From Thermoanaerobaculia bacterium (GTDB taxonomy: Bacteria > Acidobacteriota > Thermoanaerobaculia > UBA5066), in NCBI GenBank assembly GCA_022071945.1, contig JAJVIN010000058.1:1-42306 (forward strand): a stretch of 42,306 bases of DNA, in the 5' to 3' direction. Position numbers and translations under genes: made by a program. The first letter of the stretch is position 1. Each line of letters starts with the position of its first letter. Below the pieces are notes generated by a model. That model was not told the DNA's origin, did no database searches, and worked only from the letters and a program-made list of their open reading frames with translations. Shown here one piece after another: positions 6,935 through 34,182 of this stretch.

Positions 6935-8332
6935 GTGAGGCTCACCCTCGTCCATCCCTGCATCGGCAGGAAGCGTGGCCAGCCGTACATCAAGAGCTGG
7001 CAGATGGAGCCGCTGGCGCCCGCCCTCATCGCGGCCCTCACTCCCGGGGATGTCGAGGTGCGCTTCCACGACGACCGCATGGAGGAAGTCCCGTTCGACG
7101 AGCCTTCGGACCTCGTGGCGATCAGCGTCGAGACCTACACCGCCCGCCGCTCGTACGAGATCGCCACCGAGTACCGCAGGCGCGGCGTTCCCGTCGTGAT
7201 GGGAGGCTTTCATCCGACTCTCGTTCCCGGTGAGGCCGCGGTCTTCGCCGATGCGGTCGTCGTGGGAGAGGCGGAGGCCGTGTGGCCCGAGCTGATCGAC
7301 GACTTTCGATCCGGCTCCCTGAAGGAGCTGTACAGAAGCCCCGCCCGGCCCGTCCTCTCGGATAGCCGGCCCGACCGCCGCATCTTTCGGGACAAGCGCT
7401 ACCTTCCGATCGGACTCGTCGAGGCCGGACGGGGCTGCCACTTCCGGTGCGAGTTCTGCGCGGTCCAGTCCTTCTTCGGCAGCACGCAGAACCGGCGGGA
7501 TGTCGACTCGCTCCTTTCCGAGATCCGCTCCCTTCCTCAGCGGCTCCTCTTCTTCGTGGACGACAACATCACGTCGAACATGGACGAGGCCAAGGAGTTC
7601 TTTCGCGCCCTGATCCCGCTCGGGCGAAAGTGGGTGAGTCAGGCAAGCATCAACGCGGCGCACGACGAGGAATTCCTTGACTTGATCAAGCGAAGCGGCT
7701 GCCAGGGGCTTCTGATCGGGTTCGAGTCCCTCGATCCCGAGACCCTGCGCCGCATGCACAAGGGATTCAACACAATGGCCGGCGGCTACGAGCGGGCCCT
7801 CTCGAACCTGCGGAGGTTCAGGATCCCGCTCTATGCGACCTTTCTTTTCGGTAACGACGAGGACACCCATTCAACTTTCCGGGATGTCCTGGAATTCTGC
7901 GAGGAGAGCCGCTTTTTCATCGTCGCGTTCAATCACGTCACCCCGTTTCCCGGTACCCCGCTCTACAAGCGCCTGCAGGATGAGGGCAGGCTCCGGTTCG
8001 AGCGCTGGTGGCTTCATCCGGCCTATCGCTACGGCGACGTCCCGTTTCACCCCCGGCACCTCACCTGCGAAGAGGTCCGGGATGGGTGTCTGAAGCTGCG
8101 CGGCAGTTTCTACCGCTGGGGCGGAATCGCCCGGAGAAGCCTCGACCTCAGGGTCAACGCCCCGACCCCCTTCATGTGGGGAAACTTCTTTCTCATCAAT
8201 ATGATGATCCGGTCGGAGGTGAGGGCGAGGGCCGGGTACCCCCTCGGGGACGAGAGCTTCGTGGGTCCGCTCGCCGCAAGGGCGGGGGATCAAGCCAGCA
8301 TTTCCTCCTCCGTGCTTGAGCAATCGGCATAG
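6935..8332 (+). CDS. B12-binding radical SAM protein, copy B
   Basis: A 465-residue paralogue of the preceding gene. The GTG start at 6935 lies one base after the upstream TGA, implying translational coupling; the open frame continues upstream only as an overlap with copy A. The N-terminal B12-binding-like region has HPCIGRKRGQPY, FHDDRMEEVPFDEP and PVVMGGFHPTLVPGEA. The radical SAM cluster motif is CX3CX2C at C168, C172 and C175 (GCHFRCEFC). It is followed by FFVDDNIT (the usual VDDN motif), LLIGFESLDPETL and the TPFPGTPLYKRL exit-side motif. Copy A has LDLNL where copy B has VDDN, so the two have diverged and probably act on different substrates or at different steps. The HDDR segment near residue 48 is common in this family. 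The substrate cannot be deduced from the neighbours. Confidence 0.87.
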   Translation: MRLTLVHPCIGRKRGQPYIKSWQMEPLAPALIAALTPGDVEVRFHDDRMEEVPFDEPSDLVAISVETYTARRSYEIATEYRRRGVPVVMGGFHPTLVPGEAAVFADAVVVGEAEAVWPELIDDFRSGSLKELYRSPARPVLSDSRPDRRIFRDKRYLPIGLVEAGRGCHFRCEFCAVQSFFGSTQNRRDVDSLLSEIRSLPQRLLFFVDDNITSNMDEAKEFFRALIPLGRKWVSQASINAAHDEEFLDLIKRSGCQGLLIGFESLDPETLRRMHKGFNTMAGGYERALSNLRRFRIPLYATFLFGNDEDTHSTFRDVLEFCEESRFFIVAFNHVTPFPGTPLYKRLQDEGRLRFERWWLHPAYRYGDVPFHPRHLTCEEVRDGCLKLRGSFYRWGGIARRSLDLRVNAPTPFMWGNFFLINMMIRSEVRARAGYPLGDESFVGPLAARAGDQASISSSVLEQSA

Positions 8333-8414
8333 ACTGCCGGTATCTGGCGCATGGGGACGGACCTGTCTCGTGCGGGCCCTCCCGGCTTCGAAAGTGAAAG
8401 GGGGGATGACGCAG

Positions 8415-9554
8415 ATGGTGACAGCACTCGCCGGCAAGACCGCGGATCTCGCGGGTCCCGGCATCAGCACTTACGAGGAAGTGGAGAAGATCCTGCCCGT
8501 AGGCTACAGCTCGCTTCTCGATCCCAAGGAGACTCAGGTGGCCATCACGGCGGCCAAGCGCTTCATCGAGGACGGGCTGTGCAAGGAACTGAACCTGATC
8601 CGGGTCGAGGTGCCCCTCATCGTGACGAAGGAGAGCGGCGTCAACGACTACCTGGATCGCGATGGCTCACGCACCCCGATCGATTTTCCGTGCGGCCTCG
8701 GACTTCCGAAGAGGATGGAGGCCCAGATCGTCCAGGCGGCCACGAAGTGGAAGAGGATGGCTCTCCGCCAGTTCGGGATGAAGCCCGGCGAGGGCCTCGT
8801 GACCGACATGAGGGCGGTCCGCAAGGACTACTTCCTCGATCACGACCACAGCGCCTATGTCGATCAGTGGGACTGGGAGAAAGTGATCACCGCCGAAACG
8901 CGGAACCTCGACACCCTCAAGGACACGGTCCGGAAGATCTGGAAGGTCATCAAGGGAGCGGAGACCTACCTCTATGACCTCTTTCCGAAGCTGAAGGACT
9001 CCCGCTACCCGGATCTGCCCGAGGAGCTCGTCTTCTTCCACGCGGAGGAGATCCTCGAGATGTACCCCGATCTGCCGAGAAAGCAGCGCGAGACGCTTCT
9101 CGTTCAGAAGCACCCGGCCGTCTTCATCATCGGGATCGGGTGGGTGCTCGCCGATGGGTATCCCCACGAGATGCGGGCGGCCGACTATGACGACTGGGTG
9201 ACCCCGACCGTCACGGACGATGGGCGGCCGATGCACGGCTTAAACGGCGACATCCTGGTCTGGAACCCGGTCACGAAGCGCCGCCACGAGCTCTCTTCGA
9301 TGGGGATCCGCGTGACCAAGGAGACCCTCGTCCAGCAACTCCAGATCGCCCACCAGCTCGACTTCCTGAAGCTTCCGTACCACCAGGCCATCCTCAACGA
9401 CCAGATCCCCCTGTCGATCGGGGGCGGAATCGGCCAATCCCGGACCATGATGTACCTCCTGAAAAAGGCCCACCTCGGCGAGGTCAGCGTGACCGTCTGG
9501 CCCCGCCAGCTGAAGGAGATCTGCGAGAAGAAGAACATCCACGTTCTCGACTAG
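8415..9554 (+). CDS. asnA: Aspartate--ammonia ligase (asparagine synthetase A)
   Basis: Makes asparagine from aspartate, ammonia and ATP through an aspartyl-adenylate. It is related to class II aminoacyl-tRNA synthetases and acts in the cytoplasm. Family hallmarks run through the protein: TKWKRMALRQFG, GEGLVTDMRAVR, YVDQWDWEKVI, HAEEILEMYPDLP, a YDDWVTP segment, GLNGDILVWNP, LSSMGIRV and the class II motif-3-like SIGGGIGQSR. From ATG 8415 it has 379 residues, slightly longer than the roughly 330 of the E. coli enzyme because of a longer N-terminus. I prefer ATG 8415 over in-frame ATG 8406 because the aaaggggg Shine-Dalgarno tract abuts 8406 but lies 9 nt before 8415. A perfect-stem terminator follows. 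Confidence in function is high; position 8406 remains a possible start. Confidence 0.95.
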   Translation: MVTALAGKTADLAGPGISTYEEVEKILPVGYSSLLDPKETQVAITAAKRFIEDGLCKELNLIRVEVPLIVTKESGVNDYLDRDGSRTPIDFPCGLGLPKRMEAQIVQAATKWKRMALRQFGMKPGEGLVTDMRAVRKDYFLDHDHSAYVDQWDWEKVITAETRNLDTLKDTVRKIWKVIKGAETYLYDLFPKLKDSRYPDLPEELVFFHAEEILEMYPDLPRKQRETLLVQKHPAVFIIGIGWVLADGYPHEMRAADYDDWVTPTVTDDGRPMHGLNGDILVWNPVTKRRHELSSMGIRVTKETLVQQLQIAHQLDFLKLPYHQAILNDQIPLSIGGGIGQSRTMMYLLKKAHLGEVSVTVWPRQLKEICEKKNIHVLD

Positions 9555-9577
9555 CCGGAAGACGCGGTTCTGACGGA

Positions 9578-9608
9578 AAGGCCCTCGCTCGTTCGGAGCG
9601 AGGGCCTT
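9578..9608. terminator. Bidirectional terminator hairpin
   Basis: A perfect 13-bp stem (9578-9590 with 9596-9608; arm aaggccctcgctc) and a 5-base loop lie between the convergent asnA and the secreted-protein gene. There is no long T-run on the plus strand; the minus strand reads cctttcc after the stem. The placement between two converging stop codons supports a shared terminator. Confidence 0.8.
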
Positions 9609-9632
9609 CTCACCAGGAACCCGGATGGGGAG

Positions 9633-10469
9633 TCAGCGCTTGGCGGCCAGGAGCTTTTCCGCGGCGCCGTGACCCGACAGCGCTTCGTAGTTCGAGAACT
9701 CGAACCGCATGTCCTCCCGGACCTTGAAGAACATCGCGGCCCGCGCACTGACCTTGATCTCCTCGAAGCAGGGAGCCCAGGTTCCCGGAAGAACGGGCCG
9801 CGCCTCGTAGACCAGCTTGATGTCGTGCAGGTCCAGCGCGAGACCCCCGGCAACCTTGACCGGCTGCAGCAGATGTCCCTCGATCCTCAGGACTTGGTGC
9901 TCGGCGACGTCGATCCAGGCCCTCCCGGCGAAGTTGTTCAGGACACGGTCGCGAATCGTCTTCGAGACGAGACCCGGTCTCGGACCGTACTCGACGACGT
10001 AGCTCGGCCGCCCGTCGACGACTTCTTCATGCAGCAGCTTGTACTCGAACCGGAGCAGGAGATCGGCCAGCGGCATCCTGCCGGTCATCAGGTCGTCGTC
10101 CTCCGTCTCGCTTCCCGCTTCCTTGCCCGCCTGAGCCCGGCGGCGCTTCTCGTTCTGCTGCCGGATCTTCTGCTTTTCCTTCTCGGTCGCGGGCCTGCCG
10201 TCCACGTCGATCAGCTCCCGCGTCACGACGCCCTTCCCCTCGGAAACGGTGAGGTAGCGCTGCCGCCTCGGGAGGGAGGGCTTGTGGTCGGAATCGTAGG
10301 AGGTCTTCACCTCGACCTGGACAAAGGAAAAGGGCTTCCCCGCCCGCTCGGCCTCTTTCTGACGCTCCGCCGCGTGCCGCACGACTTCGTTGATGTCGAC
10401 CGCCTGGAGGGGCGCGCCACAGCACAGAAGGACCAGGGGGAGAGTCAGGAGGATCTTTCGATCAAGCAA
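9633..10469 (-). CDS. Exported LolA-like hypothetical protein
   Basis: A 278-residue protein with a clear signal peptide (basic start RK, hydrophobic LLTLPLVLLCC, likely cleavage near PLQA about residue 23). The mature part begins with an amphipathic charged helix and has a highly charged Lys/Glu/Arg linker around 95-125. It continues as beta-rich sequence (YKLLHEEVVDGRPSYVVEYGPRPG, FAGRAWIDVAEHQVLRIEGHL). This resembles the outer-membrane lipoprotein-sorting (LolA/LolB-like) fold of many uncharacterised exported proteins; I cannot assign a specific job. The start is TTG 10469, with GAGGAG 10 nt upstream on the minus strand; no ATG lies before the signal peptide. It is convergent with asnA and divergent from the GNAT-like gene. 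Confidence 0.75.
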   Translation of the reverse strand: MLDRKILLTLPLVLLCCGAPLQAVDINEVVRHAAERQKEAERAGKPFSFVQVEVKTSYDSDHKPSLPRRQRYLTVSEGKGVVTRELIDVDGRPATEKEKQKIRQQNEKRRRAQAGKEAGSETEDDDLMTGRMPLADLLLRFEYKLLHEEVVDGRPSYVVEYGPRPGLVSKTIRDRVLNNFAGRAWIDVAEHQVLRIEGHLLQPVKVAGGLALDLHDIKLVYEARPVLPGTWAPCFEEIKVSARAAMFFKVREDMRFEFSNYEALSGHGAAEKLLAAKR

Positions 10470-10700
10470 GTCCGCGTCACTCCTCGGCCCGTCTTCTTCC
10501 GTCCGGGCGGTCTTGGGATGTTGGGGTTGAGTGGGTTCGTGGGGGGAATCGAAGAAGGAGCTGCCGAAAAAACAATAAACATATCACTGATTCTTCATGA
10601 AGGACAACTGGGAGCTGCCGGTTCATGCCGCGCCCCAAGTTCGCCTCCCACGGAAAACCGGAATTGATCCCGGCGGGACGCTCCGGCAGGATCGAAGCAC
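10470..10700. promoter_or_regulatory. Divergent intergenic region with AT-rich patch
   Basis: This 231-base gap separates divergent genes. An AT-rich patch (about 10563-10604, including aaaaaacaataaacatatcac) stands out against the GC-rich background and contains the 10-bp palindrome CTTCATGAAG at 10593-10602. It is the obvious place for promoters in both directions. No strong sigma-70 consensus pair could be fixed by eye. Confidence 0.35.
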
Positions 10701-11816
10701 ATGGGAGGCAATCGCCCCGTCTCGTTTTCGTTCGAGCTCGCCCGTCCGTCCGATGAAGAGGAGTTGAGGCGCCTCGCCCGGAGCGCTCCCGTGCCCGGTT
10801 CCGTCACGGTCGCCTACGAACGAGAACCCGATTACTTTCGAGGGTGTCTGGCCCACGCGCCCTTTTGCCAGGTCCTGATCGCCCGGCGGGAGGGGAAGGG
10901 GGAGATCGCCGCCATGGCCGTCCGGGCCATCCGGGAGTACTGGAGAGATTCCGCCGTGGTGCCCGCCGCATACCTGGGACAGCTCCGCGTCTCCCCGAAG
11001 CACCGGGGGCGGTGGCTCGTTCCCGCGGGATTCCGGTTTCTTCGGGAGCTCGCGCGGGACGGCCGGACCGGGGAGTCCTTCACCACCGTCATCGAGGGAA
11101 ACCAGGAGGCCGAGCGGCTCCTCGTGGAAGCGCCCCGGCGATCGTTGCCGAGATACCGGCCCGTGACTCGAGTGGTTTCGCTCGTTCTCCCCGTCCCCGA
11201 ACACCCGCTGCCGCGACCGCCGGACGTGGAAACGCTCGAGCCCGCCCTCTGGGACCCCTGCCTCGATTTCTGGCGGCAGAGATCGTTCGAGAGGCGGCTG
11301 ATTCCCGTCATCGACCTCGAGAACCCGGAATCGACCGGATTCCCGGATCTTGATGCCGGGGACATCTTCGTCTCGCAACCGGCTGGCTCCATCCAGGCCA
11401 CCCTGGGTCTGTGGGATTGCAGCCGCTTCAAGCAGGCCGTCATCGTCGAGTTCGGGCGCGGCCTGACGTTACTGCGGCCCCTTCTTCACCTTCTCTGCCG
11501 GCTCCGTGGGTGGCCGCGCCTGCCCGGCGAAGGGGCTCCCCTGCGGATGGCGTTCGGAACTCTCCTGGTTGCCGCTCGCGGTGAGGAGAACCGGCTGACC
11601 GGCCTGGTCCGGGCTGTCCTCGAACGGGCCCGGGAGCGGTCTCTGGACTTTCTCGTTCTCGCGCTGGACGAGCGCGATCCAGCCCTTCCGGCCGTTTCAC
11701 GGTTTCCCCACATGAAATATCGCAGCCGGCTCTTCACGGTCTCGTTTCAGGAGCCGGATTCCCTTTTTCCCGATCTCTCCTCTCACGTTGTGCACGTGGA
11801 ACCGGGCACTCTTTAG
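10701..11816 (+). CDS. GNAT-family acyltransferase-like protein
   Basis: A 371-residue protein that appears to hold two GNAT-type acyltransferase regions. The N-terminal half (about 8-150) has the GNAT order: an opening FELARPSDEEELRRL, a central strand with YLGQLRVSPKHRGRWL (motif A, Q/RxxGxG/A-like) and then FTTVIEGNQEAERLL. The C-terminal half has PAGSIQATLGLWDCSRFKQAVI and a further LVAARGEENR...LDFLVLALDERD stretch. The acyl donor and acceptor are unknown. It ends 12 bases before the next gene and seems to form an operon with that gene and the GH3-type enzyme, so a role in making or modifying an acyl-amino acid or similar conjugate is an inference from context. The ATG at 10701 has only a weak upstream ribosome-binding sequence. 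Confidence 0.75.
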   Translation: MGGNRPVSFSFELARPSDEEELRRLARSAPVPGSVTVAYEREPDYFRGCLAHAPFCQVLIARREGKGEIAAMAVRAIREYWRDSAVVPAAYLGQLRVSPKHRGRWLVPAGFRFLRELARDGRTGESFTTVIEGNQEAERLLVEAPRRSLPRYRPVTRVVSLVLPVPEHPLPRPPDVETLEPALWDPCLDFWRQRSFERRLIPVIDLENPESTGFPDLDAGDIFVSQPAGSIQATLGLWDCSRFKQAVIVEFGRGLTLLRPLLHLLCRLRGWPRLPGEGAPLRMAFGTLLVAARGEENRLTGLVRAVLERARERSLDFLVLALDERDPALPAVSRFPHMKYRSRLFTVSFQEPDSLFPDLSSHVVHVEPGTL

Positions 11817-11828
11817 AATCGGGATCCG

Positions 11829-12557
11829 ATGTCGTCTGGCCTTGAGCGAGTACGAGGCGAAGTCCTGGAATGCCAGAAACTCGGGCCCCGGGAGAAGGAC
11901 GCTCTCTTCTCGCTGATGGAGAGGCACTACGACCGGGTGGAGCGGGGGGCCTTCGAAAGCGACCTCTCTGAGAAGCACTGGGTCGTCTTGCTCAGAGCCG
12001 AGGGCGGGGACGTCAAGGGCTTCTCGACCCTCGCCGAGATGCGCCACTCTGTGGGACAGGAGAGCATCCGTGCTCTTTTTTCCGGAGACACCGTCGTCGA
12101 TCGGGCCTTTCGAGTCTCTCCAGAGCTTTCGCGGACCTGGGGGGCGTTCGCCTTTCGCTGGGCCGAGGAGGTTCCAACCGAGCGGTCCTTCTGGTTCCTG
12201 ATCTCGAGCGGGTTCCGGACCTTTCGCTTTCTCCCGGTCTTTTTCTCCCGGTACGTTCCCAGTCCTGCCGGAAACGAAGTCGAGGACTGGTCCCGGATCC
12301 TCTTCTCGCTCGCGAGGGAGCGATTCGGACAGAGTTTCGATCCAGAAACCGGCATTGTCAGGCTGAAGAACCCGACTCCCCTGAAAGCGGGAGAGGGGGA
12401 GCCAACCGGACGCGAGAGGTCAGACCCGGATGTCGAGTTCTTCCTGCGAAGAAATCCGGGCTGGGCAGCGGGAGACGAACTCGCGTGTCTGACCGAGATC
12501 TCGAGGACCAACCTGACGCGGGCGGGAGCGCGCATGCTTCGCGAGCCGGGCCGCTGA
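11829..12557 (+). CDS. Hypothetical protein, partner of GH3 enzyme
   Basis: A 242-residue soluble protein that I cannot assign firmly. The first half (about 20-140) shows an alternating helix/strand pattern with KHWVVLLRAEGGDVKGFSTL and TVVDRAFRVSPELSR. This would fit a degenerate GNAT fold, giving two acyltransferase-like genes in a row. The C-terminal quarter is charged and contains a DPDVEFFLRRNPGWAAGDELACL segment. It lies between the double-GNAT gene (12 bases) and the GH3 gene (4 bases), so tight co-transcription is nearly certain and a shared pathway is likely. Confidence 0.65.
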   Translation: MSSGLERVRGEVLECQKLGPREKDALFSLMERHYDRVERGAFESDLSEKHWVVLLRAEGGDVKGFSTLAEMRHSVGQESIRALFSGDTVVDRAFRVSPELSRTWGAFAFRWAEEVPTERSFWFLISSGFRTFRFLPVFFSRYVPSPAGNEVEDWSRILFSLARERFGQSFDPETGIVRLKNPTPLKAGEGEPTGRERSDPDVEFFLRRNPGWAAGDELACLTEISRTNLTRAGARMLREPGR

Positions 12558-12561
12558 GCCG

Positions 12562-14142
12562 GTGCGGGCAGCCGTCGTCAACCAGCTGTGGCGGGGGGTC
12601 TCGCGGGGAGCCTTCCACCGGTTCCAGATCGCGGCCGAGGCGCCCGACGAGGCGCAAGAAGAGGTCCTGCTGCGGCTCGTGAGACGAAACGCCCGCACGT
12701 GGTTCGGCCGGCGCCATGGCTTTTCCCGGATTCGGGGGCTGGCCGCCTTTCAGAATCGGGTCCCCATCTCCTCGTATCGGGATTACGAGGCCGCAATTGC
12801 GCGAATTCGAGCGGGGGAGAAGAACGTCCTGACATCGGAGCCGGTCCTTCGGCTCGTCCCCACGAGCGGGACGGCCTGTGCGCGAAAGCGGATCCCGTAC
12901 ACGAGGAGCCTCCTTCTCGAGTACGAACGGGCCGTGTCGGTCTGGATCTCGGACCTCTTCGAGGAGTTCCCGGAGGCCTTCCACGGGAGAGCCTACTGGG
13001 CCCTCTCTCCGCCCCTCGAGACCCAGGCGCCGTCTGGTTCCGTCATTCCCGAGGGATTCGAGGCCGATCACACCTACCTGGGCCGGATCGGGATGCTCCT
13101 GAAGAGCGCAGTCCTGGCCGTCGGTCCCGGCGCGCGGTTCCGTCCGGAGATCGGGGCCTTTCGCCGAGAGACCCTGAGTGCCCTGATCGCCTGCGAGGAT
13201 CTCGCCCTCGTCTCGGTCTGGCATCCATCCTTCATGCTGCTACTTCTCGAGGCCCTTCCGGAGCTTCTGCCTGAGCTCGCTCAGAGCATCCCCGCGAGCC
13301 GGGAGAGGCTGCTTCGAGCCAGGACGGCTCCACCCGGCGAGAGAGCTCGGGTGATCTGGCCGCGCCTGGCGCTCGTGAGCGCCTGGCTGGACGGCCCGGC
13401 CGCGGCCGGCGGACGCAGGCTCGAGAAGCTCCTGCCGGGAGTCCCGTTTCAGGCGAAGGGTCTGATGGCCACGGAGGGAGTCGTCTCGATCCCCTCGGGG
13501 CGCTCTGGGTACTCGGTTCCCGCCCTCACGTCGCACTTTCTCGAGTTCCTGGACCCGAACGGAAAGGTCCGCACCGCCGGCCAGCTTGAAACCGGGCAGA
13601 CGTACGAGGTCCTCCTGACGACGGGCGGCGGGTTCACCCGGTACGGCCTGGGAGATCGCGTGAGGGTGGCTGGCCATTCTGGGAAGCTCCCGCTCCTGGC
13701 CTTTGCGGGCAGGTCCGGGGGAGTCAGCGACCGCTTCGGGGAGAAGCTCGACGACGAGCTCGTGGCGAGGGCGATCGGGACCCTCCTGGAGGAGCTGGCT
13801 CTCGATCCCGAGCTGTGGTTCCTCTCGTTCGAGGAGGCGGCGGGCGGGTATGTCCTCTTCCTGGAAGCTGCGCCGAATGGAGCAGCCCCGAGGCTCGATC
13901 TCGAGGCCGACTCGGCCCTCCGGCGGATCTATCACTACGACGTGGCCCGGCGCCTCGGCCAGCTCGGACCGGCCAGGGTGTTCTGGCTGGCGAGGGGGAG
14001 CCGGGCGAGAGTTTTCGAGGTTCTCGGGCGGGGCGGGAAGCGCGCTTCGGAGGTCAAGCCCGGCCACCTGTTCCTGACGGAAGGGTGGCTCCCGGTTCTG
14101 GACGGCCGCCTGACACCCTGCCGGGACGAGGAGAAGCCGTGA
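12562..14142 (+). CDS. GH3 auxin-responsive-promoter-family acyl adenylase
   Basis: A 526-residue bacterial member of the GH3 family. The plant members are ANL-type enzymes that adenylate a carboxylic acid and transfer it to an amino acid. Family signatures are in order: FQNRVPISSYRDYEAAIARI (about 63-82), GEKNVLTSEPV, the phosphate-binding TSGTACARKRIPYT (101-114), MATEGVVSIPSG (from 302), the ATP-site GGGFTRYGLGDRVRV (about 355-369) and GEKLDDELVARAI (from 393). The C-terminal part (about 400-520) matches the small mobile domain. The start is GTG 12562, four bases after the preceding stop. The substrates of bacterial GH3 proteins are poorly known; two acyltransferase-like genes immediately upstream suggest a small amide or conjugate pathway, which is inference only. 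Confidence 0.88.
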   Translation: MRAAVVNQLWRGVSRGAFHRFQIAAEAPDEAQEEVLLRLVRRNARTWFGRRHGFSRIRGLAAFQNRVPISSYRDYEAAIARIRAGEKNVLTSEPVLRLVPTSGTACARKRIPYTRSLLLEYERAVSVWISDLFEEFPEAFHGRAYWALSPPLETQAPSGSVIPEGFEADHTYLGRIGMLLKSAVLAVGPGARFRPEIGAFRRETLSALIACEDLALVSVWHPSFMLLLLEALPELLPELAQSIPASRERLLRARTAPPGERARVIWPRLALVSAWLDGPAAAGGRRLEKLLPGVPFQAKGLMATEGVVSIPSGRSGYSVPALTSHFLEFLDPNGKVRTAGQLETGQTYEVLLTTGGGFTRYGLGDRVRVAGHSGKLPLLAFAGRSGGVSDRFGEKLDDELVARAIGTLLEELALDPELWFLSFEEAAGGYVLFLEAAPNGAAPRLDLEADSALRRIYHYDVARRLGQLGPARVFWLARGSRARVFEVLGRGGKRASEVKPGHLFLTEGWLPVLDGRLTPCRDEEKP

Positions 14143-14234
14143 GGCGCCGGCTTTCTATAATTCGCCCCGCCCGTTCGAACGCCGTCGAGCCGCTTTCGTA
14201 AGAGGAGTGTTTCATCCTGAAATCCGCTTTCCCG

Positions 14235-15137
14235 GTGGGACTCTTCCCACGCCTCGAGCGAGGGGGGGCCGCGCTCCTGGCCTTCCTGCTCGTGGCGCAC
14301 GCACTCGTCGCGGAGCCACGAGAGGCAGGGGCCAAGGGTCACCTCGTTCTCGTTGGGGGAGGGAAGAAGCCCCGTTCTGTCCTGTCGAAGTTCGTCGAGC
14401 TTTCGGGCGGAGCCCGGGCCCGCATCCTGATCGTTCCGACAGCCTCCAAGGACTCGGAGGCAGGAGAAGAAAACAAGAAGGTCCTCGAGAAGGAGTTCGG
14501 GTGCCAGAACGTGAAGGTCTTGCCAATCTCGACCCGCGCGGACGCGCAGCGGCAGCTCCTCGCGGACATGGTCGAGGAGGCGGGCGGAGTCTTCTTCACG
14601 GGCGGCGACCAGAGGCGGATCGTGTCGGCACTGAGGGACACGATCGTTCTCGACGCCCTTCGGCGGGTGTTTGCGAAAGGGGCGGTTGTGGGGGGAACGT
14701 CAGCCGGAGCGGCCTGCATGAGCGAGCTGATGCTGACGGGTGAGGGGAAGCCCGACATCCTGAAAGCGAAGAACGTGGAGCTCTGGCCGGGTCTCGGATT
14801 CTGGAAGGGCGTCATCGTCGATCAACACTTCGTCGCGCGGCAGAGGCAGAACCGGCTGATCTCGGCCGTCCTCGAGAACCCGGACTCTCTCGGGGTCGGC
14901 GTCGATGAAGGAACCGCCGTCTGGGTCAAGCCGGATGGGACATTCGAGGTGCTGGGAGAAGGCTCGGTGTTCGTTTTCGATGCTTCTGGCGCGAGCATCA
15001 CGTCTCGCCCGTCAGCCGGCGGATCGAGCTTGCTGGGCGTCCAGGCTCTCCTTACGCATGTGCTCTTGCCAGGCGAGGTCTTCGATGCCGCCGCGAGAAA
15101 AGTCGTCCCCGGCACGGAAAGGCCGTCCGCGCCATGA
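14235..15137 (+). CDS. Cyanophycinase, exported (peptidase family S51)
   Basis: A serine exopeptidase of the S51 family, expected to cut cyanophycin (a poly-aspartate backbone bearing arginine) to beta-Asp-Arg dipeptides. Seen in the sequence: HLVLVGGGKKP, ILIVPTASKDSEAGEENKK, the GGVFFTGGDQRRI segment, the nucleophile elbow GGTSAGAA (Ser about 156), DQHFVARQRQNRL and GVGVDEGTAVWV. An N-terminal hydrophobic stretch (ALLAFLLVAHALVA) followed by a polar AEPREAGAKG looks like a signal peptide, so the mature enzyme is probably periplasmic or extracellular. The canonical start is GTG 14235, but the Shine-Dalgarno AGAGGAG (14201-14207) is 27 nt away; the in-frame CTG 14217 at 9-nt spacing is a possible non-canonical start. 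No cyanophycin synthetase is in the window. Confidence 0.88.
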   Translation: MGLFPRLERGGAALLAFLLVAHALVAEPREAGAKGHLVLVGGGKKPRSVLSKFVELSGGARARILIVPTASKDSEAGEENKKVLEKEFGCQNVKVLPISTRADAQRQLLADMVEEAGGVFFTGGDQRRIVSALRDTIVLDALRRVFAKGAVVGGTSAGAACMSELMLTGEGKPDILKAKNVELWPGLGFWKGVIVDQHFVARQRQNRLISAVLENPDSLGVGVDEGTAVWVKPDGTFEVLGEGSVFVFDASGASITSRPSAGGSSLLGVQALLTHVLLPGEVFDAAARKVVPGTERPSAP

Positions 15138-16168: not shown

Positions 16169-18313
16169 GTGAAAGAACTTGATTCGGCGCAGCTGTTTCC
16201 CTTCGAGGGCGAGCCCTTTGGCTATTCCCTTCACCTGCTTCTTGGCCAGGGTTCGGACGGAGATCCAGCTCCGATTCTTCTCGGGCAAGACCGGGAAGAG
16301 ATGACGGCGCGGGTGTACCTCGGAGCCATCGTGGGGGAGCCGGACAGCCTCGTCGACCTCGTGGCGATCAAGATGCTCCCGAACGATTCGAATCAGGCGG
16401 CGGGGGGAGGCCAGATCGCCGTCACGAACCAGATGCTCTGGGAAAGGTGGGACCGGGAGCGTCTGAGGCTCACCGCTCTGCGGCAGAGCGGGATCTTCTT
16501 CCCGAAGCTCTTCCAGCCCGAGGATGGCAGGAAGGGACTGGGGCTCGCGCAGATCCCACCCCTGTTTTTCGCCCGGGAGGCCAAGCAGCTCTTCACGCCT
16601 CCGTGCCCTTACTGCGCCCGTCCCCTGGAGACGATCCGGGACGAGACCTTCCTCAGAACGAGGCGCCTGCCTTCTTTCGAGGAGAGCGCCTACAGGCTGA
16701 CGGGGTGCCTGGCCTGTGCAGACCGTGAAGGGGCCGTCGCGGTCTTCTCGGCGATGCCGCTGAGGCTTCCGGGCTCGGTGGCGGTGGGCAAGCCGGAAGA
16801 GCTGGCTCGAAGCCTCGCCAAGGCGCTCCTGAGAGACTGGGACGAGAAGACCGTGCAGACCTTTGCGTCGAAGGCGTGCGCCGAAGAGGCGCTGGCAGCA
16901 AGGAAATCGGGCAACGTCCCCAATCCCCTGGCGTTCAGTCTTCGCTGGCTTCCCTTCAACTTCGCGTTGTCTCCGGTCCTGGTGACGGGGCTTTCCCCCC
17001 TGCGCTGGGACGAATGGGCCGACGTGCTGGGCGGGCGTGACCTCGCGGAGATCATCCCGTCGGCGACCGCGGACCACTTGCAGAATCAGTCGATCCAGCG
17101 CCGCGTCGAGTGGTTGAAGAGCCGCCTGCCCGAGTCGGGCCAGTTCTTTTTCGCCGAGGAGGGGAACGGGCTAGATGCCAACGAGGTCCTGTGCCTGAAG
17201 TTGATCGGGTTCCACCAGGTCGTCACGGCTCTCGCCGCCTTCTACAGGACCACGAGCCAGCCTCATCTCGACCTCAATGCGGGCCACGTGCTGTTTGACC
17301 CGTTCGGGGCAGGCGCCTCCCTGCCGTCATTCTGGTCGTTCGAGGCGAAGCTGCACGGGGTCGCCTCGTCGCTCAGCGCCGCGTCCTTGGGGTTCGACGT
17401 CGTCCTGCCTCCGGCGCATCCGACGTATCCGTATGCCGCCCCCGAGATCGTGGAGTTCCAGATGGCCCATCCGAGAGCCGCGGATGTCTTTTTCCAGGAC
17501 ATCTTGCCGGATCAAGGCAGCGGGGGAATGAGGGTCGTCGGGCGTCTCGTGGATCCGAACGGCCTCTTCCCCACGCCTTCAGCGGCTGATCCGATCCGGC
17601 TCGCGCTTCCCGAGGAGGTGGCGGGCCTCGGGCTGTCGGGGCTGACGGTCTTTCTCAAGGAGGGGTCGGAGCCCTCGTATCAGGAGTTCGAGTTCCAATC
17701 CGAACCCGTCGAGATCGATGAGATCCTGGTCAAGAAGTTCAGGAGGATGTTCGGGGCGAGATTCCCGGGTGTCCGTTACAAGGTGTTCCCGAGGTTTGGC
17801 TCGCCCTCTGACCTCTACTCGCTCGGAATCCTGCTTCTGAGGGCGCTCTCGCACGACGAGGCGCATTTCGGCGCCATCGTGCAGGCCCTGCCCCGGCTCT
17901 CGCCCGTCCTTTCGAAGCAGGACTCGGACAGGCCGGCCGAGGCCCGGCTCCGGGCGGCTGCGGCGGGGGAGCCAGCCGTCCTGGCCCTGCTCGATCGCTC
18001 GAGCATCTTCTTCGGGAACAGGGAACGGGCGGCCGCCCGCCCGAACGCGATTCCGCAGAGTCTGTGGGAGCAGGCCGCCTGCCTGGCCTTCCGCCTGGCG
18101 ACCAGGACGAGCGGCTTTTCCGTGTGTGCGTCCGCCTCGGATTTCGATCCCGCCAATCCGGTCGAGAAGCTCGAGCTGCTCCTCGCCGAGACGGAGGGCC
18201 TCATCGGATCCCTCAGGACGCTCCTCTTCCACCGGCAGGCCATTCACCGCGAGATCCAGACGATCCTCGCCGAGTTCCTTCTCGACGAACCCGGGGGGAG
18301 AGAAGAAGCGTAG
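16169..18313 (+). CDS. Divergent protein kinase with zinc-ribbon insert (T6SS)
   Basis: A 714-residue protein at the head of the T6SS locus. Protein-kinase landmarks are in the right order: a Gly-rich loop LLGQGSDG (about 24-31), the ATP-lysine motif VAIK (K68), a likely alpha-C helix (MLWERWDRERLRLTAL, about 89-104), a catalytic-loop-like HLDLNAGHVLFD (366-377; D368 matches HRD aspartate, but K and N positions are N and H), YAAPE (422-426) and DLYSLGILLLRAL (548-560). No clear DFG is seen. A four-cysteine zinc-ribbon-like insert, CPYC and CLAC (C146, C149, C180, C183), lies between the lobes. A further insertion of about 120 residues separates APE from DLYSLG. It starts at GTG 16169 with GGAG at 8-nt spacing. 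No trans-membrane segment is seen, unlike classical PpkA. Given the FHA protein next door, a threonine kinase or pseudokinase regulating secretion is inferred. Activity is uncertain. Confidence 0.65.
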   Translation: MKELDSAQLFPFEGEPFGYSLHLLLGQGSDGDPAPILLGQDREEMTARVYLGAIVGEPDSLVDLVAIKMLPNDSNQAAGGGQIAVTNQMLWERWDRERLRLTALRQSGIFFPKLFQPEDGRKGLGLAQIPPLFFAREAKQLFTPPCPYCARPLETIRDETFLRTRRLPSFEESAYRLTGCLACADREGAVAVFSAMPLRLPGSVAVGKPEELARSLAKALLRDWDEKTVQTFASKACAEEALAARKSGNVPNPLAFSLRWLPFNFALSPVLVTGLSPLRWDEWADVLGGRDLAEIIPSATADHLQNQSIQRRVEWLKSRLPESGQFFFAEEGNGLDANEVLCLKLIGFHQVVTALAAFYRTTSQPHLDLNAGHVLFDPFGAGASLPSFWSFEAKLHGVASSLSAASLGFDVVLPPAHPTYPYAAPEIVEFQMAHPRAADVFFQDILPDQGSGGMRVVGRLVDPNGLFPTPSAADPIRLALPEEVAGLGLSGLTVFLKEGSEPSYQEFEFQSEPVEIDEILVKKFRRMFGARFPGVRYKVFPRFGSPSDLYSLGILLLRALSHDEAHFGAIVQALPRLSPVLSKQDSDRPAEARLRAAAAGEPAVLALLDRSSIFFGNRERAAARPNAIPQSLWEQAACLAFRLATRTSGFSVCASASDFDPANPVEKLELLLAETEGLIGSLRTLLFHRQAIHREIQTILAEFLLDEPGGREEA

Positions 18314-18468: not shown

Positions 18469-20550
18469 ATGAGTCCAGCACCCCGAGCCCTCTCCCTGGA
18501 AGTCTGGCTGGGACCCATGGAGGGGCTGCGATATGTCGCCGATGTCAGGAGCGCGGCCCAGATCGCCCGCATCGGCCGGCTTCCGTTCGACAAGAAGGAG
18601 CGGGTGCCGAACCAGCTCGTTTTGTCGAGCTGCGTCGGCGTCTCCGGGAGCCACGCTCTCGTCCGGTACACCCAGGGGAAGCTCGCGGTCGCCGACCTGA
18701 AGAGCACGAACGGCACCTTCGTGGCGGGTGACCTCGTTTCGGCGGACACGCCCGTGGAGAACGGAGACATCTTTCTCGTCTCCCTGACGCCGCTCCGGGT
18801 CACGGCGGATGAGCGGCCCGTCTATCCCAGCCCGCCGATGGAACCCGTCTCGATGAACAGCTGGAACGATGCCGCGCTCGGGCCCGTCCTGAGATCCGCG
18901 CGAGACGTCGCGGCGAAGCGGGGCGAGCGCTACATCGACTCCCGGCACCTGGCGGAAGCCGTCCTCACATCCTCCCTACCCCCTGTCCAGGAGTCCCTGG
19001 AGGCCGCCGGGACCGGCGTGAACCGGCTTCTCGGAGAACTCTGGTCCAAGGAGCTCTTTTCGGCGGACCTGGAGTGGATCGCGGAGGTCCTCATCAAGCC
19101 CGTGGGGCTGCCGGCGGATGTGGACGGTGCCGTCGTGGCTCCGAAGGTCGCCCGGTTCCTGACCTCGGCCCAGCTCGCATCGGAAGACATCTCGCCAGCC
19201 CTCAAGCCGGCGTTTCTGGCGGCGAGCCTTCTGACCTCTATCTTGAAGGACGCGAGCGGCGCGGTGGGCAGCTGGCTGGCCCGGCACGGAGTGCAGCCGC
19301 CGGCCGTCGCCGGAGCCGTTCCCACCCCGGGTCCGACGCGGACGGCGTCCAGCAAGGACCTGATTCCGTCCGGGATTTCGAAGGTCGACGAGACGTCTCC
19401 GAGCGCCGTCATCGTCAAGCCTCACGCGAGCAGGAGCGGGGCCCGTCCGACGACCGTGATGACGAGTCCTCCGATCTCGACTCCGCCGCCTGTGACGGAG
19501 CCGATCCCGCAGGCCTCTCAGGAGGTCGAGGCGGGAGAGGGAACCGTCGACGTCAAGAAGGTCGCGAGGTCGAGGCGCGAGCCGGCCGTTGTCCCGCCGC
19601 CTCCGCCGATGACCCCGGTGGCTCCGGCGCAGCCCCCCGCCTTGCCTGCTCAGCCGGCGGCCGCGCCCGCGCAACCCGCGACGCCCCCGCCTCCCATGAG
19701 CGCGGCTCTCGAGAGGCGGGCCCGTCAGCTTGCCGAGGAGCTGAGCCTTCTGGCCGCCCAGAACCGTTTCGGAACCCCCGATGACCGCCACCGGCTCCTG
19801 CGCGGCCGTGTCACGAAAGAGCTCGGCTCGGTGCCCCGCGCCAACAAGCGAGCTCTCATCGAGCGTACCCAGGCCTACTTTCCGGTCGTCGAGGTCCAGT
19901 CTTCGGTGGACGCGGAGATCGTCCAGCTCAGAAAACAGCTGGCGGAGCAGAAGCGGGTCGAGGCCGGCCTGAGGGAAGCTCTCGCGAGCGCCTCGTCGCG
20001 CCGCAACGAGTCCGAGGTGAACTGGAAGAGCCTGGTCGGAGGGATGGAAGCTCCCCCGCAGGACAAAAGCCAGAGGATCCTGCGCGACATCGTCCAGTTC
20101 GCGCTGACGATGGAGAACTTCCTCCTCGGTCTCATCCAGTCGACGACGAACCCGGGAGATCAGACCTCCAATTTCAGGCTTCCCCGGCACAGGGACACCC
20201 TGCGGTCCCTGATGATGGCGGTGGCGGAGGGGAACCCGCCGTCCCAGCAGAAGATCAATGAGTACCTCCTGGAGCTCCAGCAGTGGCAGGTCGCCTGCCT
20301 CGCCGCTTACCTGCAGGCTCCGAAGGAGTGGTTCGGGCGCCTATGGAAGAGGACCAATCCGGCGACGATCGAGGGCTTCGCCCGTCAGGGAGGGCTCCTC
20401 AGAAAGGCCGAGGAGGAGTGGTGGCAGACGTACAAGGCTGCCGTCAAGGACCTCGGACCCGACGTCGTTCAGGACCAAGTTCTGCAGATCACGAGCAAGC
20501 TCGCTCAAGACGAATTCGAGAGATTGAGATCAGCCACGAAGGAGAAATGA
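18469..20550 (+). CDS. FHA-domain T6SS regulator with Clp-N-like module
   Basis: A 693-residue cytoplasmic protein. The N-terminal FHA domain (about 12-112) has IARIGR, SGSHALVRY and the LKSTNGTFVAG core that reads phosphothreonine. It is followed (about 131-275) by two helical repeats resembling the Clp/ClpV N-domain: LRSARDVAAKRGERYIDSRH then LAEAVL in the first, VARFLTSAQLASEDISPALK then LAASLL in the second. Next come a Pro/Ala-rich linker (about 285-410), a charged probable coiled coil (about 480-512) and a helical C-terminal domain (about 530-690) that could correspond to the TagH/Fha C-terminal region. In known T6SS loci Fha scaffolds assembly after PpkA phosphorylation. Its last codon overlaps the start codons of tssJ. 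The Clp-N resemblance is my own reading by pattern and needs a profile search. Confidence 0.8.
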   Translation: MSPAPRALSLEVWLGPMEGLRYVADVRSAAQIARIGRLPFDKKERVPNQLVLSSCVGVSGSHALVRYTQGKLAVADLKSTNGTFVAGDLVSADTPVENGDIFLVSLTPLRVTADERPVYPSPPMEPVSMNSWNDAALGPVLRSARDVAAKRGERYIDSRHLAEAVLTSSLPPVQESLEAAGTGVNRLLGELWSKELFSADLEWIAEVLIKPVGLPADVDGAVVAPKVARFLTSAQLASEDISPALKPAFLAASLLTSILKDASGAVGSWLARHGVQPPAVAGAVPTPGPTRTASSKDLIPSGISKVDETSPSAVIVKPHASRSGARPTTVMTSPPISTPPPVTEPIPQASQEVEAGEGTVDVKKVARSRREPAVVPPPPPMTPVAPAQPPALPAQPAAAPAQPATPPPPMSAALERRARQLAEELSLLAAQNRFGTPDDRHRLLRGRVTKELGSVPRANKRALIERTQAYFPVVEVQSSVDAEIVQLRKQLAEQKRVEAGLREALASASSRRNESEVNWKSLVGGMEAPPQDKSQRILRDIVQFALTMENFLLGLIQSTTNPGDQTSNFRLPRHRDTLRSLMMAVAEGNPPSQQKINEYLLELQQWQVACLAAYLQAPKEWFGRLWKRTNPATIEGFARQGGLLRKAEEEWWQTYKAAVKDLGPDVVQDQVLQITSKLAQDEFERLRSATKEK

Positions 20551-20552
20551 TG

Positions 20553-20999
20553 ATGTCGAGAAGGTTTCTGGCCCTTTCGGTCCTTGCTGGGGCGATCCTT
20601 TTGCCCGCCTGCAGCACCCCGGTCGCCAAGATCGACTTCCGGTGCAATTCGAGCCGGATCAACGACGGGAACCTGCTGACTGTCGACGTGGTCCGGGCCA
20701 CGGAGGGGGATGTCCGAGAGATTCAGCAGCTCGGGGAGAAGTGGTTCTACGAGGCCAAGCGGATGAGCATGGGCGAGAAGGTGAAGACGGTGGCATTCCC
20801 CGCGCCGGATGGGACCTGCGACCGGATGATCGAGGTCCCCGCCGCCAAGGGCGAGAAATTCCTCGTCGTCATCGCCGACTACAAGTTCCAGACCGCGGAT
20901 GCCTCCCAGTACGTCAAGGTCCTGCCCGCCGAGAAGTGGGCCGGGCGCAAGATCCGGATCTCCATCCAGGAGCGCGAGCTCATCATCACGAGCCAATAG
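20553..20999 (+). CDS. tssJ: T6SS outer-membrane lipoprotein TssJ
   Basis: A 148-residue lipoprotein of the trans-envelope complex, anchoring TssM at the outer membrane. A lipoprotein signal peptide MSRRFLALSVLAGAILLPAC carries a lipobox-like LPAC with the lipidated Cys at 20. The mature part is beta-rich with the TssJ layout: a first strand LLTVDVVRAT, a loop EIQQLGEKWFYEAKRMSMG where TssJ has its TssM-binding loop, then IEVPAAKGEKFLVVIADYK. Three in-frame ATGs (20547, 20550, 20553) follow an AAGGAG; 20553 gives the best spacing (8 nt), while 20547 overlaps the FHA gene stop. Sequence similarity is weak, as is usual for TssJ; position before tssK-tssL-tssM supports the call. Confidence 0.75.
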   Translation: MSRRFLALSVLAGAILLPACSTPVAKIDFRCNSSRINDGNLLTVDVVRATEGDVREIQQLGEKWFYEAKRMSMGEKVKTVAFPAPDGTCDRMIEVPAAKGEKFLVVIADYKFQTADASQYVKVLPAEKWAGRKIRISIQERELIITSQ

Positions 21000-27635: not shown

Positions 27636-28664
27636 ATGACCAACTCCAGCATCTTCGATCTGTTCTCGCGGCTGAGGCAGCCCCGGGGAGGGTCGGAAGC
27701 GGTGACCCTGAACGTCTTCGGGAAGCTGCCGATCTACAAGGACTTCATCTCGATCGGGCTCACGGAGAAGCCGGCCCAGGAGTTCAAGGACTGGATCTCG
27801 AACGGATTCAGCAAGCGCTACGCGGCCAGGGAGGAGTACCGCGGGGGAGTCATTCCCCAGTTCTCCTTCCTGCTCAGGCTGCCGGAGAGCGGCCGGTGCG
27901 TGGCCGGAGTTCTGTGGGGAAGCCACGACGAAGGGGGGCTGCGCCAGTTCCCCTTCACCCTGTTTTGTGTGGTGCCCGACTCGAGAACCTTCACGTTTCC
28001 CCTCGTGGCGCTCGACTACCTCCGGGTCTTCGAGCAACACGCGGGGGAGATCCGGAGGAACTATCAGTCGGGCGGGGCCTTGCAGGCTTTCTACAGTGTC
28101 TACCGGGGTCTGAGGCTCGAGGTCCCGGCCAGGGCTGCCGATCAGGTCGAGGCGGAAGCGAGAGATGCCCTCAACGACATCACCGTCGAGGAATTCGCCA
28201 ACTCGATTCCGGGGGTCCACTCGGCGGAGAACTGGAGAAAGCTGACGGCGGGGATCCGGCACGGCATGACCTCGACCGAGCACGTCCAGGACGGGGCCGT
28301 CAGGTTCCCGACAGGGGAGAGGCTCCGCCCGGCGCTGCAGATGCAGTTCTGGCTTCTCTGGGCGCTCGGTTCCCCGGCCGGGAGGAAGGCCGCCGTGCCG
28401 AGCGGGTTCCTCTTCGAGAGCCGGCCCTACGAGTCCGGCCGCGGGACGTTTCTCTTCCGGTCCATCCGGACCGACGATTTCCTGCTCTTTCACCCGACAC
28501 ACGCCGACTACGAGTTCGTCGAGGAGGTTCAGCCTCCCGGGGTTCCGGCGGATGCTTCGGCCTCCGGAGGTCCGAACGCCGGAGGTTCACCTTCCGCCGA
28601 GGAGGCGGGAGGCGACTGGGATCGGCCCATGGCTTCCCTTCTCCCGCGCCTGGAGGAACGGTGA
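27636..28664 (+). CDS. tagF: T6SS accessory regulator TagF (ImpM-like)
   Basis: A 342-residue TagF-family protein. In Pseudomonas aeruginosa TagF blocks T6SS firing after translation by sequestering Fha. The family core is clear in the first half: FGKLPIYKDFISIGL (the GKLPxxGDF motif), an FSFLLRLPESGRCVAGVLWGS strand pair and a GGLRQFPFTLFCVVP motif. A second region (about 215-290) and a disordered Gly/Ser/Ala tail (about 300-330) follow. The glycine of the GDF motif is replaced (IYKDF). It starts 12 bases after tssM with a good SD (GGAG). With the FHA and kinase-like genes it completes a likely post-translational control set. Confidence 0.88.
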   Translation: MTNSSIFDLFSRLRQPRGGSEAVTLNVFGKLPIYKDFISIGLTEKPAQEFKDWISNGFSKRYAAREEYRGGVIPQFSFLLRLPESGRCVAGVLWGSHDEGGLRQFPFTLFCVVPDSRTFTFPLVALDYLRVFEQHAGEIRRNYQSGGALQAFYSVYRGLRLEVPARAADQVEAEARDALNDITVEEFANSIPGVHSAENWRKLTAGIRHGMTSTEHVQDGAVRFPTGERLRPALQMQFWLLWALGSPAGRKAAVPSGFLFESRPYESGRGTFLFRSIRTDDFLLFHPTHADYEFVEEVQPPGVPADASASGGPNAGGSPSAEEAGGDWDRPMASLLPRLEER

Positions 28665-29405: not shown

Positions 29406-29430
29406 GGGGTTCACCACGATTTTGGCGGGT

Positions 29431-30243
29431 TTACGAGGGGGCGTTTGCCCCCTCGTCGAATTCAATGCGGCCGAGTTCCAGAAGCCCCATGTCGGCCTCG
29501 TCCGTCAGGAACATATGCATTCCGTGCCCCACCGAAATATCGGGTCCAGCCTCCGACCAGCTCGTCATCCGGCCCAGCCGGATGGCCGAATCGGCGTGGG
29601 ACTCGCTGGCAGGATAGCGAACGGGCAGGAACAGCTCGGTCTTGTTGCCCTCCCGGTCTTCCAGGCGCGCCGGCGCCCAGACGAGATCCCGGAGCTTCTT
29701 CGGGGCCTCGACCGAGAGCGACTTGATGAGGCCGAACGGCACCCAGTAGTAATCGCTGCCGCGGATCACCTCGAGGACGCCGCCGTAGCGGTCGTCGTAG
29801 TCGCGGAAGTCCTCGAACCGCCGGCCGGCAACCGAACCGGAGATCGCCGGGCGTTCCTCCTCGGCGGCATCCAGGAGCCGGCGGGCCTCTGCGAATTGGC
29901 CGGCCGCGATCTCCCGCAGGGCGGCCAGCTGGAACTCGACGTGCGCCGGGACCGTCCCGCCGGGCACGGTCGGTCTCGCCTTGCCCTTGAAGACGTCCTC
30001 CCGCTTCTTCTCGGCGGCCATGTTGGCCCGGTAGAGCTGGACGCCCATGGCGGACTCCGTGCTCTGGTGACCGACGACTTCGAGTTGCTTCCCGGCCCGG
30101 TCCCATTCTCCGTTCAGGCAGAGAACCTCGAACAGGGTGAGACGGAGAGGGATGTCAGAGGGGTTGGCACGCACGTCGTCGACGGCGGCGGCAACAGCCT
30201 CGGAAAGCCGCCCTTGATCGAGCAGCTCTTTGATTTGGCTCAT
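29431..30243 (-). CDS. tagJ: T6SS accessory protein TagJ (ImpE/SciE family)
   Basis: A 270-residue ImpE/TagJ-family protein. In P. aeruginosa TagJ binds the sheath protein TssB and may modulate ClpV action. The N-terminal half is TPR-like helical (LLDQGRLSEAVAAAVDDVRANPSDIPLRL, shown here only by its LxxGxLxEA opening and LFEVLCLNGEWDRA), with EFQLAALREIAAGQFAEARRLL. The C-terminal half is the family-specific beta domain, with FEDFRDYDDRYGGVLEVI, YYWVPFGLIKSLSV and FLPVRYPASE. It is the only T6SS gene on the minus strand, divergent from tssA and convergent with hcp. AAAGGAG lies 8 nt before ATG 30243. The stop codon overlaps an inverted repeat. Confidence 0.9.
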   Translation of the reverse strand: MSQIKELLDQGRLSEAVAAAVDDVRANPSDIPLRLTLFEVLCLNGEWDRAGKQLEVVGHQSTESAMGVQLYRANMAAEKKREDVFKGKARPTVPGGTVPAHVEFQLAALREIAAGQFAEARRLLDAAEEERPAISGSVAGRRFEDFRDYDDRYGGVLEVIRGSDYYWVPFGLIKSLSVEAPKKLRDLVWAPARLEDREGNKTELFLPVRYPASESHADSAIRLGRMTSWSEAGPDISVGHGMHMFLTDEADMGLLELGRIEFDEGANAPS

Positions 30244-30395
30244 GACCGCGCTCCTTTCAGATACTCGCAGATTAGAAACGCGACCATGGCCGCGTCAAGT
30301 GTTCCCTCATCTGGGGCCTCGCATTGACTCAGGACCAGCCTTATGCTTGGGTTAGAATTTGAACTCCAGCGAGATAGAAGGAAACGGAGAAGGTG
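30244..30395. promoter_or_regulatory. Divergent tagJ/tssA promoter region
   Basis: The 152 bases between divergent tagJ and tssA must contain both promoters. On the plus strand TTGACT (30324-30329) and TAGAAT (30353-30358) are visible, but 23 bases apart, too far for a normal sigma-70 pair. The exact promoter is therefore unresolved. Confidence 0.35.
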
Positions 30396-33699: not shown

Positions 33700-34182
33700 A
33701 TGCCGCGATACGACAATGAAGTGAGGGTCACTCCCTCGGTCCTCGACCGTCTCATCGACTACGAGCCGGAGGTCAGCCGGGAGGCGCCGTCCTCCAGGGC
33801 CAAGAGCCTCCGCCTGCTCAAGCAGTCGGTGCGGCGCGATCTCGAGTGGCTGTTCAACACGCGCTTCACGGCCGACGTGCCCGAGAGCCTCGAGAACGTC
33901 CAGGAGTCGGTCTTGGTCTACGGGCTCCCCGATTTCACGGCTCTCTCCATCAAGAAGATCGACGATCGCGACCGCCTGCAGCAGGCCATCGAGAAGGCCG
34001 TCGCCGTCTTCGAGCCGCGCCTGGACAGTGTCGTCGTCGTCCTCGAGGAGGGCGACGCCCAGAAGGGCGTCCGGTTCCGGATCGAGGCCCGGCTCCTCGT
34101 CGATCCCGCGCCGGAACCGGTGACCTTCGACACCGCTTACCAGCCCCAGAGCGGGACATACTTCGTCAGGGGCGAGGCATGA
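33700..34182 (+). CDS. tssE: T6SS baseplate protein TssE (gp25-like)
   Basis: A 160-residue gp25/lysozyme-like baseplate wedge protein that nucleates sheath assembly. Typical elements are SVLDRLIDYEPEVSRE, the LKQSVRRDLEWLFNTR helix (the EWLLNTR-type motif), ESVLVYGLPDFTALS, IEKAVAVFEPRLDSVVV and RFRIEARLLVDP. ATG 33700 begins just before the PRYDNEVRVTPS opening typical of the family; the frame is open further upstream only as antisense-free overlap with tssC. The stop overlaps the tssF start (ATGA). Confidence 0.95.
   Translation: MPRYDNEVRVTPSVLDRLIDYEPEVSREAPSSRAKSLRLLKQSVRRDLEWLFNTRFTADVPESLENVQESVLVYGLPDFTALSIKKIDDRDRLQQAIEKAVAVFEPRLDSVVVVLEEGDAQKGVRFRIEARLLVDPAPEPVTFDTAYQPQSGTYFVRGEA

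Follow-up and report, generated by a model that had tools for sequence, protein, structure and literature searches.

A putative T6SS-linked pseudokinase with two inserted domains in one class of Acidobacteriota

In a Thermoanaerobaculia bacterium, a T6SS operon opens with a gene for a 714-residue protein, for which a two-lobe Hanks-type kinase fold is supported by sequence profiles and by a structural model. The gene lies in a stretch of 42,306 nucleotides (contig JAJVIN010000058.1), hereafter the window, and the protein belongs to a small, undescribed family. We consider it probable that this protein is a dedicated T6SS pseudokinase with a zinc-ribbon region and a beta-barrel as inserts, and that it acts by binding, having abandoned the usual Mg-ATP phosphotransfer. 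On the best reading it would be paired with Fha in the clade of the window protein and with a TssB-TssC fusion paralogue in the sister clade, as a scaffold or a switch.

Gene and T6SS operon

The gene is followed by those for Fha, a TssJ-like lipoprotein, TssK, TssL, TssM, TagF, Hcp, TssA, TssB, TssC, TssE, TssG, ClpV and VgrG. The operon is complete, and the placing of the gene at the head of a T6SS locus, made in an earlier note on this DNA, is confirmed. Scans of Pfam (E up to 1-5), NCBIfam and PADLOC left the protein without a match, and in Pfam not even E 1-5 brought a kinase hit. The source genome of 6.17 Mb carries a single copy of the kinase-fold gene, while its matches to the canonical kinase family number about 100; among so many kinases this degenerate member is conspicuous. 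In the FHA domain of the adjoining Fha the phosphothreonine-binding residues (R, S..H, N-G) are intact. No PP2C-type (PppA) match was found among the window ORFs scanned, TagF included (Table 1).

Within the operon, TssG is confined to the C-terminal third of a 929-residue ORF (34298-37087), and TssF, undetected by Pfam, is probably encoded in the overlapping ORF 33846-36035. The ORF between Hcp and TssA (29422-30327, plus strand) looks spurious, 29431-30243 on the minus strand being the better gene candidate; by tblastn, L044, L046 and L063 have similar stretches at the corresponding position. Upstream of the T6SS genes, at 8316-15137, genes for AsnA (asparagine synthetase A), a GNAT protein, a GH3-family ligase and an S51 peptidase (cyanophycinase family) adjoin one another and perhaps form a small amino-acid-conjugate or aspartate-peptide cluster. 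At 191-5275 the minus strand encodes a large protein, probably located at the surface, whose repeats are of the Kelch, CARDB, PKD and Fn3 types.

Table 1. Features of the kinase-fold gene and its partners (window positions unless a contig is named)
Feature	Position	Strand	Basis or remark
T6SS-linked kinase-fold protein	16169..18313	+	GTG start, GGAGGG upstream; relatives found
N-lobe, strands 1-3 and helix C, residues 1-110	16169..16498	+	hhalign P 6e-4 for the piece; degenerate Gly-loop; model of low confidence before residue 85
Beta-3 K68	16370-16372	+	Motif table
Helix-C E97	16457-16459	+	Motif table
Zinc-ribbon-like CX2C...CX2C, residues 146-183, insert after helix C	16604..16717	+	Four Cys together in 12/14, absent in L011 and L057
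Mainly helical rest of first insert, before helix E, residues 205-334	16781..17170	+	Secondary structure of model; position by kinase motifs
Helix E and catalytic loop PHLDLNAGHVLFD, residues 335-378	17171..17302	+	hhalign P 2e-7 for the piece; D368 and H373 invariant
HLD	17264-17272	+	Catalytic loop
His373 in place of Asn	17285-17287	+	Catalytic loop
DFG position, LHG, residues 395-397	17351..17359	+	No metal-binding Asp; DFG in 0/14 members
APE motif, residues 424-426	17438..17446	+	Motif table, hhalign
Second insert (residues 428-544), beta-barrel-like domain of six strands that separates the APE helix from helix F	17450..17800	+	AF2 of the domain alone, Z 7.3
Helix F with invariant D548 (SDLYSLG)	17801..17848	+	APE and helix F piece against kinases, P 4e-8
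Rest of C-lobe and helical tail, residues 561-714	17849..18310	+	AF2 model, VIA-align
Fha, partner gene in window clade	18469..20550	+	N-terminal FHA domain, Pro-rich linker, T6SS_FHA_C-like tail
TssJ-like lipoprotein (lipobox LLPAC)	about 20547..20999	+	Inferred from position and signal
TagF, without PppA phosphatase domain	27636..28664	+	Domain scans
TssB-TssC fusion paralogues	L022:811-2613; L042:13075-14859 (-); L058:11790-13478; L060:9036-10388; L061:4735-6105

Evidence for the kinase fold

Alignment of the insert-free family profile to ten canonical kinases of the same genome with hhalign covered strand 1 through helix G in 211 columns, with a probability of 97.7, a P value of 1.8e-12 and a score of 90.3. 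Among the controls, 60 column-shuffled templates scored at most 24.5 and a reversed template 16.5, while random choices of segments reached a maximum of 42.9 without the catalytic loop and 82.4 with it. When the profile was left untrimmed, the catalytic loop alone aligned to these kinases (P 1.4e-5). Taken as separate pieces, the N-lobe, the catalytic loop and the APE motif with helix F each matched their own kinase counterparts in the right order (hhalign; P values in Table 1). A profile search of the PDB returned 14 matches, all to kinases at the catalytic loop but with E values of 0.7-1, and phmmer with the single sequence against the PDB gave a chance match only.

The AF2 model of the whole protein (13 sequences) reached a pLDDT of 67 and a pTM of 0.64, with low confidence in residues 1-85 of the N-lobe. 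Comparison of this model by VIA-align yielded Z 13.7 for PknS of X. citri (9eed) and 13.6 for the IRAK3 pseudokinase; 140 chains had a Z of at least 8, and all 50 among the matches listed were kinases. Foldseek with the whole 714-residue model did not rank kinases first, its top being GyrA chains at a TM-score of 0.08, which is meaningless. The whole chain is taken up by the kinase fold and the inserts, with no transmembrane segment or sensor region outside, and helix E of the fold accounts for the sole hydrophobic peak (KD 1.79). The two-lobe kinase fold, which the earlier note had left to a profile search and a structure prediction, is supported by both, and kinase ancestry with it. All the motifs that had been quoted are present in the translation: LLLGQGSDG (22-31), VAIK (K68), HLDLNAGHVLFD (366-377), YAAPE (422-426) and DLYSLG (548-553). 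Their kinase order goes beyond chance, given the conservation of K68, D368, H373 and D548 described below and the piecewise alignment to canonical kinases.

Active-site residues

Motif counts cover 14 members of the family, namely the window protein and 13 relatives. The HRD Asp (D368) and the helix-F Asp (D548) are found in all of them. The beta-3 Lys (K68) is kept in 12, with Arg and Gln in the other two, and the helix-C Glu (E97) and APE Glu (E426) in 11. The window clade keeps K68, E97 and the APE Glu in 11 of 11 members; all three positions are eroded in the sister clade. The catalytic-loop Asn is absent throughout, His (H373) standing there in 14/14, and the catalytic-loop Lys is replaced by Asn in the window protein and by His in most relatives. 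The DFG Asp is likewise missing from every member, the position reading (L/I)(H/L)G. These readings refine the earlier description of no clear DFG and a replaced K/N in the catalytic loop. The absence of both metal ligands from all members places their loss before the family split, after which the sister clade went on to lose more of the kinase signature. The Gly-rich loop, also described earlier, is present in the window sequence but is peculiar to it, as relatives read LVLGPLAGG, LLDVSGES, LELEADRVT and the like. H373 and H396 as a new metal pair was considered and dropped, because H396 falls at the Phe of DFG in the ungapped alignment and is Leu in the sister clade.

By the bioinformatic definition, a pseudokinase has a kinase fold without at least one of the motifs for nucleotide binding or catalysis (PMC4718504), and the 714-residue protein is, on its sequence, a pseudokinase in this sense. 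An intact Gly-loop together with the beta-3 Lys is the best predictor of activity, even in CASK (PMC4718504). Of the features of an active Hanks-type kinase, the window protein has K68 with E97 and D368 and lacks a conserved Gly-rich loop and the metal ligands. The earlier note had offered either an active, remodelled kinase or a pseudokinase; the latter fits better, given the lost DFG Asp, the change of Asn to His and the unconserved Gly-loop.

Inserted domains

Helix C and helix E are usually spaced by about 60 residues in kinases. Here they are about 225 residues apart, and this first insert holds helices and the CX2C...CX2C region, whose four cysteines (CPYC and CLAC; C146, C149, C180 and C183) stand where they had been reported. 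The two members without any of them belong to different clades, and the four Cys were lost as a unit, independently, twice. To be present or lost together is expected of a structural zinc site, which suits the region better than a sensor. Metal or redox sensing through the cysteines had been supposed in the earlier note; since the site is dispensable, such sensing cannot be the core function, and it may occur in members keeping the four Cys.

The second insert is a well conserved domain of 117 residues, seven of them invariant, for which AF2 on these residues alone gave a pLDDT of 85 and a pTM of 0.79. The best Z with flavin-reductase-type and UPF1-type barrels lies in the range of a common arrangement and is too weak to assign the domain (Table 1). 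The earlier note mentions neither this insert nor two features described below, the confinement of the family to T6SS loci in a single class and its link to a TssB-TssC fusion paralogue.

Distribution and partner genes

Relatives were sought in the relatives of the source genome, its family, class and phylum, and the genome collection. All 13 come from the same class of Acidobacteriota and lie in T6SS loci wherever the contig is long enough; none was found among the viral contigs or plasmids searched. Together with the window protein they form two supported clades, one of 11 members from the window's own taxonomic family and one of three from outside it (L022/G486, L030/G382 and L057/G425). 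TssC occurs in 20 of 149 genomes of the class, among them 13 of the 14 with the kinase-fold protein (Fisher P 6e-13, genomes counted irrespective of relatedness); the remaining one is 75% complete and in short contigs. A T6SS locus without the kinase-fold protein, in G452, has TssK as its first T6SS gene, with no kinase or Fha upstream.

In the window's family, wherever readable, the order is kinase-fold gene, Fha, TssJ, TssK, TssL and TssM, and the kinase-fold gene overlaps Fha by 4 bases in two loci. A need of the kinase-fold protein for Fha everywhere was rejected, as no FHA match is found nearby in G382, G486 and G425. The Fha linker was also examined for a conserved phosphothreonine motif; TT(L/M/V) is present in several members and missing in others, and was not used.

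All three sister-clade genomes carry the kinase-fold gene directly after a TssB-TssC fusion gene, spaced by 1-8 bases or overlapping. Fusion paralogues are also present in the genomes of most window-clade members; that of the window's genome (L060) is on another contig. They occur in 11 of 13 T6SS-positive genomes with the kinase-fold protein and 0 of 7 without it (Fisher P 5e-4), or in 3/3 against 0/5 when counted by taxonomic family (P 0.02). These paralogues score well below NCBIfam cut-offs, are additional to the canonical sheath genes and, in the window's family, have no sheath C-terminal domain. They fall into two separate groups, which may share an origin. In one sister-clade genome a canonical kinase (TPR, PEGA, Pkinase) is encoded shortly after the pseudokinase (L022:5996-8185).

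Proposed role and alternative explanations

We propose that the pseudokinase would dock on Fha in the window clade or on the TssB-TssC fusion in the sister clade and, by holding or releasing its partner, would set the timing of membrane or baseplate complex assembly. It probably helps to assemble or switch the T6SS by binding partners and not by phosphorylating them. As K68 and E97 are kept in the window clade, nucleotide may still bind there and set the conformation; their conservation, with that of E426, suggests a continuing role for nucleotide binding or for weak chemistry. The kept phosphothreonine pocket of Fha means that a phosphorylated partner probably exists. A different kinase would then place the phosphothreonines that Fha reads, as in Mycobacterium, where PknB phosphorylates the tail of the MviN pseudokinase and FhaA reads it (PMC12599244). 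By this analogy the partner is perhaps the pseudokinase itself, phosphorylated by one of the other kinases, of which the genome has many. A TagF without PppA would fit a phosphatase-independent Fha checkpoint, and control by TagF and Fha without threonine phosphorylation is known in Agrobacterium and Pseudomonas (PMC5995506).

Several observations count against this explanation. The HRD Asp is invariant, and the full retention of K68, E97 and the APE Glu in the window clade looks as if nucleotide binding or chemistry mattered, in the very clade that has an intact FHA reader adjoining. The binding partners are putative, the N-lobe of the model is of low confidence, and Foldseek did not place kinases first. 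The protein might instead be an active atypical kinase without the usual metal ligands, the PpkA of this T6SS, which phosphorylates Fha or TssL in the window clade and has lost its activity in the sister clade. The same residues would speak for it, being kept in all Fha-linked members and eroded in the three without a nearby Fha, as would the retained FHA pocket and the precedent of CASK, which phosphorylates without cations in the absence of the DFG Asp (PMC4718504). CASK, however, has an intact Gly-rich loop and this family does not, the catalytic-loop Asn is also lost, no PppA was found beside the gene among the ORFs scanned, and the other kinases of the genome could serve Fha. We regard an active kinase as unlikely.

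A fully structural part of the T6SS, in which the kinase fold only scaffolds the zinc ribbon and the barrel, no nucleotide is bound and the real partner is the TssB-TssC fusion, would account for the co-occurrence with the fusion paralogue and for the adjoining genes in the sister clade. We hold it to be improbable: the fusion gene is not adjacent in the window clade, the paralogues form two groups that may have separate origins, and the conservation of K68 and E97 would be unexplained. Gating of a kinase by zinc or redox state through the four Cys, the idea of the earlier note, draws on their presence in 12 of 14 members and is very improbable, since two unrelated members lost all four and kept the rest of the protein, and such CX2C pairs usually bind structural zinc. 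To return to the pseudokinase, a wider proposal, which we make tentatively and think rather doubtful, is that a class of T6SS in Acidobacteriota runs a module of pseudokinase and TssB-TssC fusion, in which the pseudokinase would bind the sheath-like protein (and Fha where present) and control sheath or baseplate assembly as a non-catalytic replacement of the PpkA/PppA switch.

Comparison with known systems

In T6SS operons with the PpkA-Fha-PppA-TagF pathway of threonine phosphorylation, Fha and TagF likewise have a gene with a kinase fold as a neighbour. PpkA carries a transmembrane segment and a sensor region outside its kinase domain. In contrast, the window protein has neither of these, lacks intact kinase motifs, including the active-site Asp and Asn, and has no cognate PppA among the window ORFs scanned. 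CASK and DLHK-type kinases also keep the HRD Asp and lose the DFG Asp, but CASK has an intact Gly-loop and DLHK kinases keep the Asn, both lost here, and neither is T6SS-linked. PknS, the best structural match, is similar in fold only, being a canonical Hanks kinase with a transmembrane segment, whose target is a sigma factor; it is reported to be needed for T6SS expression in Xanthomonas citri (PMC13147305). The T6SS kinases in the literature searched, PpkA and PknS, are described as active enzymes.

Precedents exist for pseudokinases in secretion systems and beside FHA proteins. YukC/EssB of type VIIb secretion also has a kinase fold whose catalytic motifs and Gly-loop are degraded, is encoded in a secretion locus and serves as a scaffold (PMC12599244). 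It differs in secretion system and phylum, is a membrane protein, has lost all motifs where the T6SS protein keeps the HRD Asp, and has no zinc ribbon or barrel insert. MviN-FhaA is a pseudokinase paired with an FHA protein (PMC12599244), but it acts in cell-wall regulation and FhaA is recruited through the phosphorylated tail. No T6SS-dedicated pseudokinase was found in the literature searched, and a 2025 review of bacterial pseudokinase families mentions neither T6SS nor Acidobacteria (PMC12599244). The fusion paralogue can be likened, by description only, to TssC40 of Agrobacterium, which is reported as an additional TssC homologue, non-redundant and required for secretion, and is not described there as a TssB-TssC fusion (PMC3702570).

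If the proposal is true, a pseudokinase fixed beside Fha in a T6SS operon would mean that the Fha switch is workable without a kinase and phosphatase of its own. The T6SS would then have its own equivalent of the YukC/EssB of type VII secretion, and bacterial pseudokinases would gain a family with two inserted domains.
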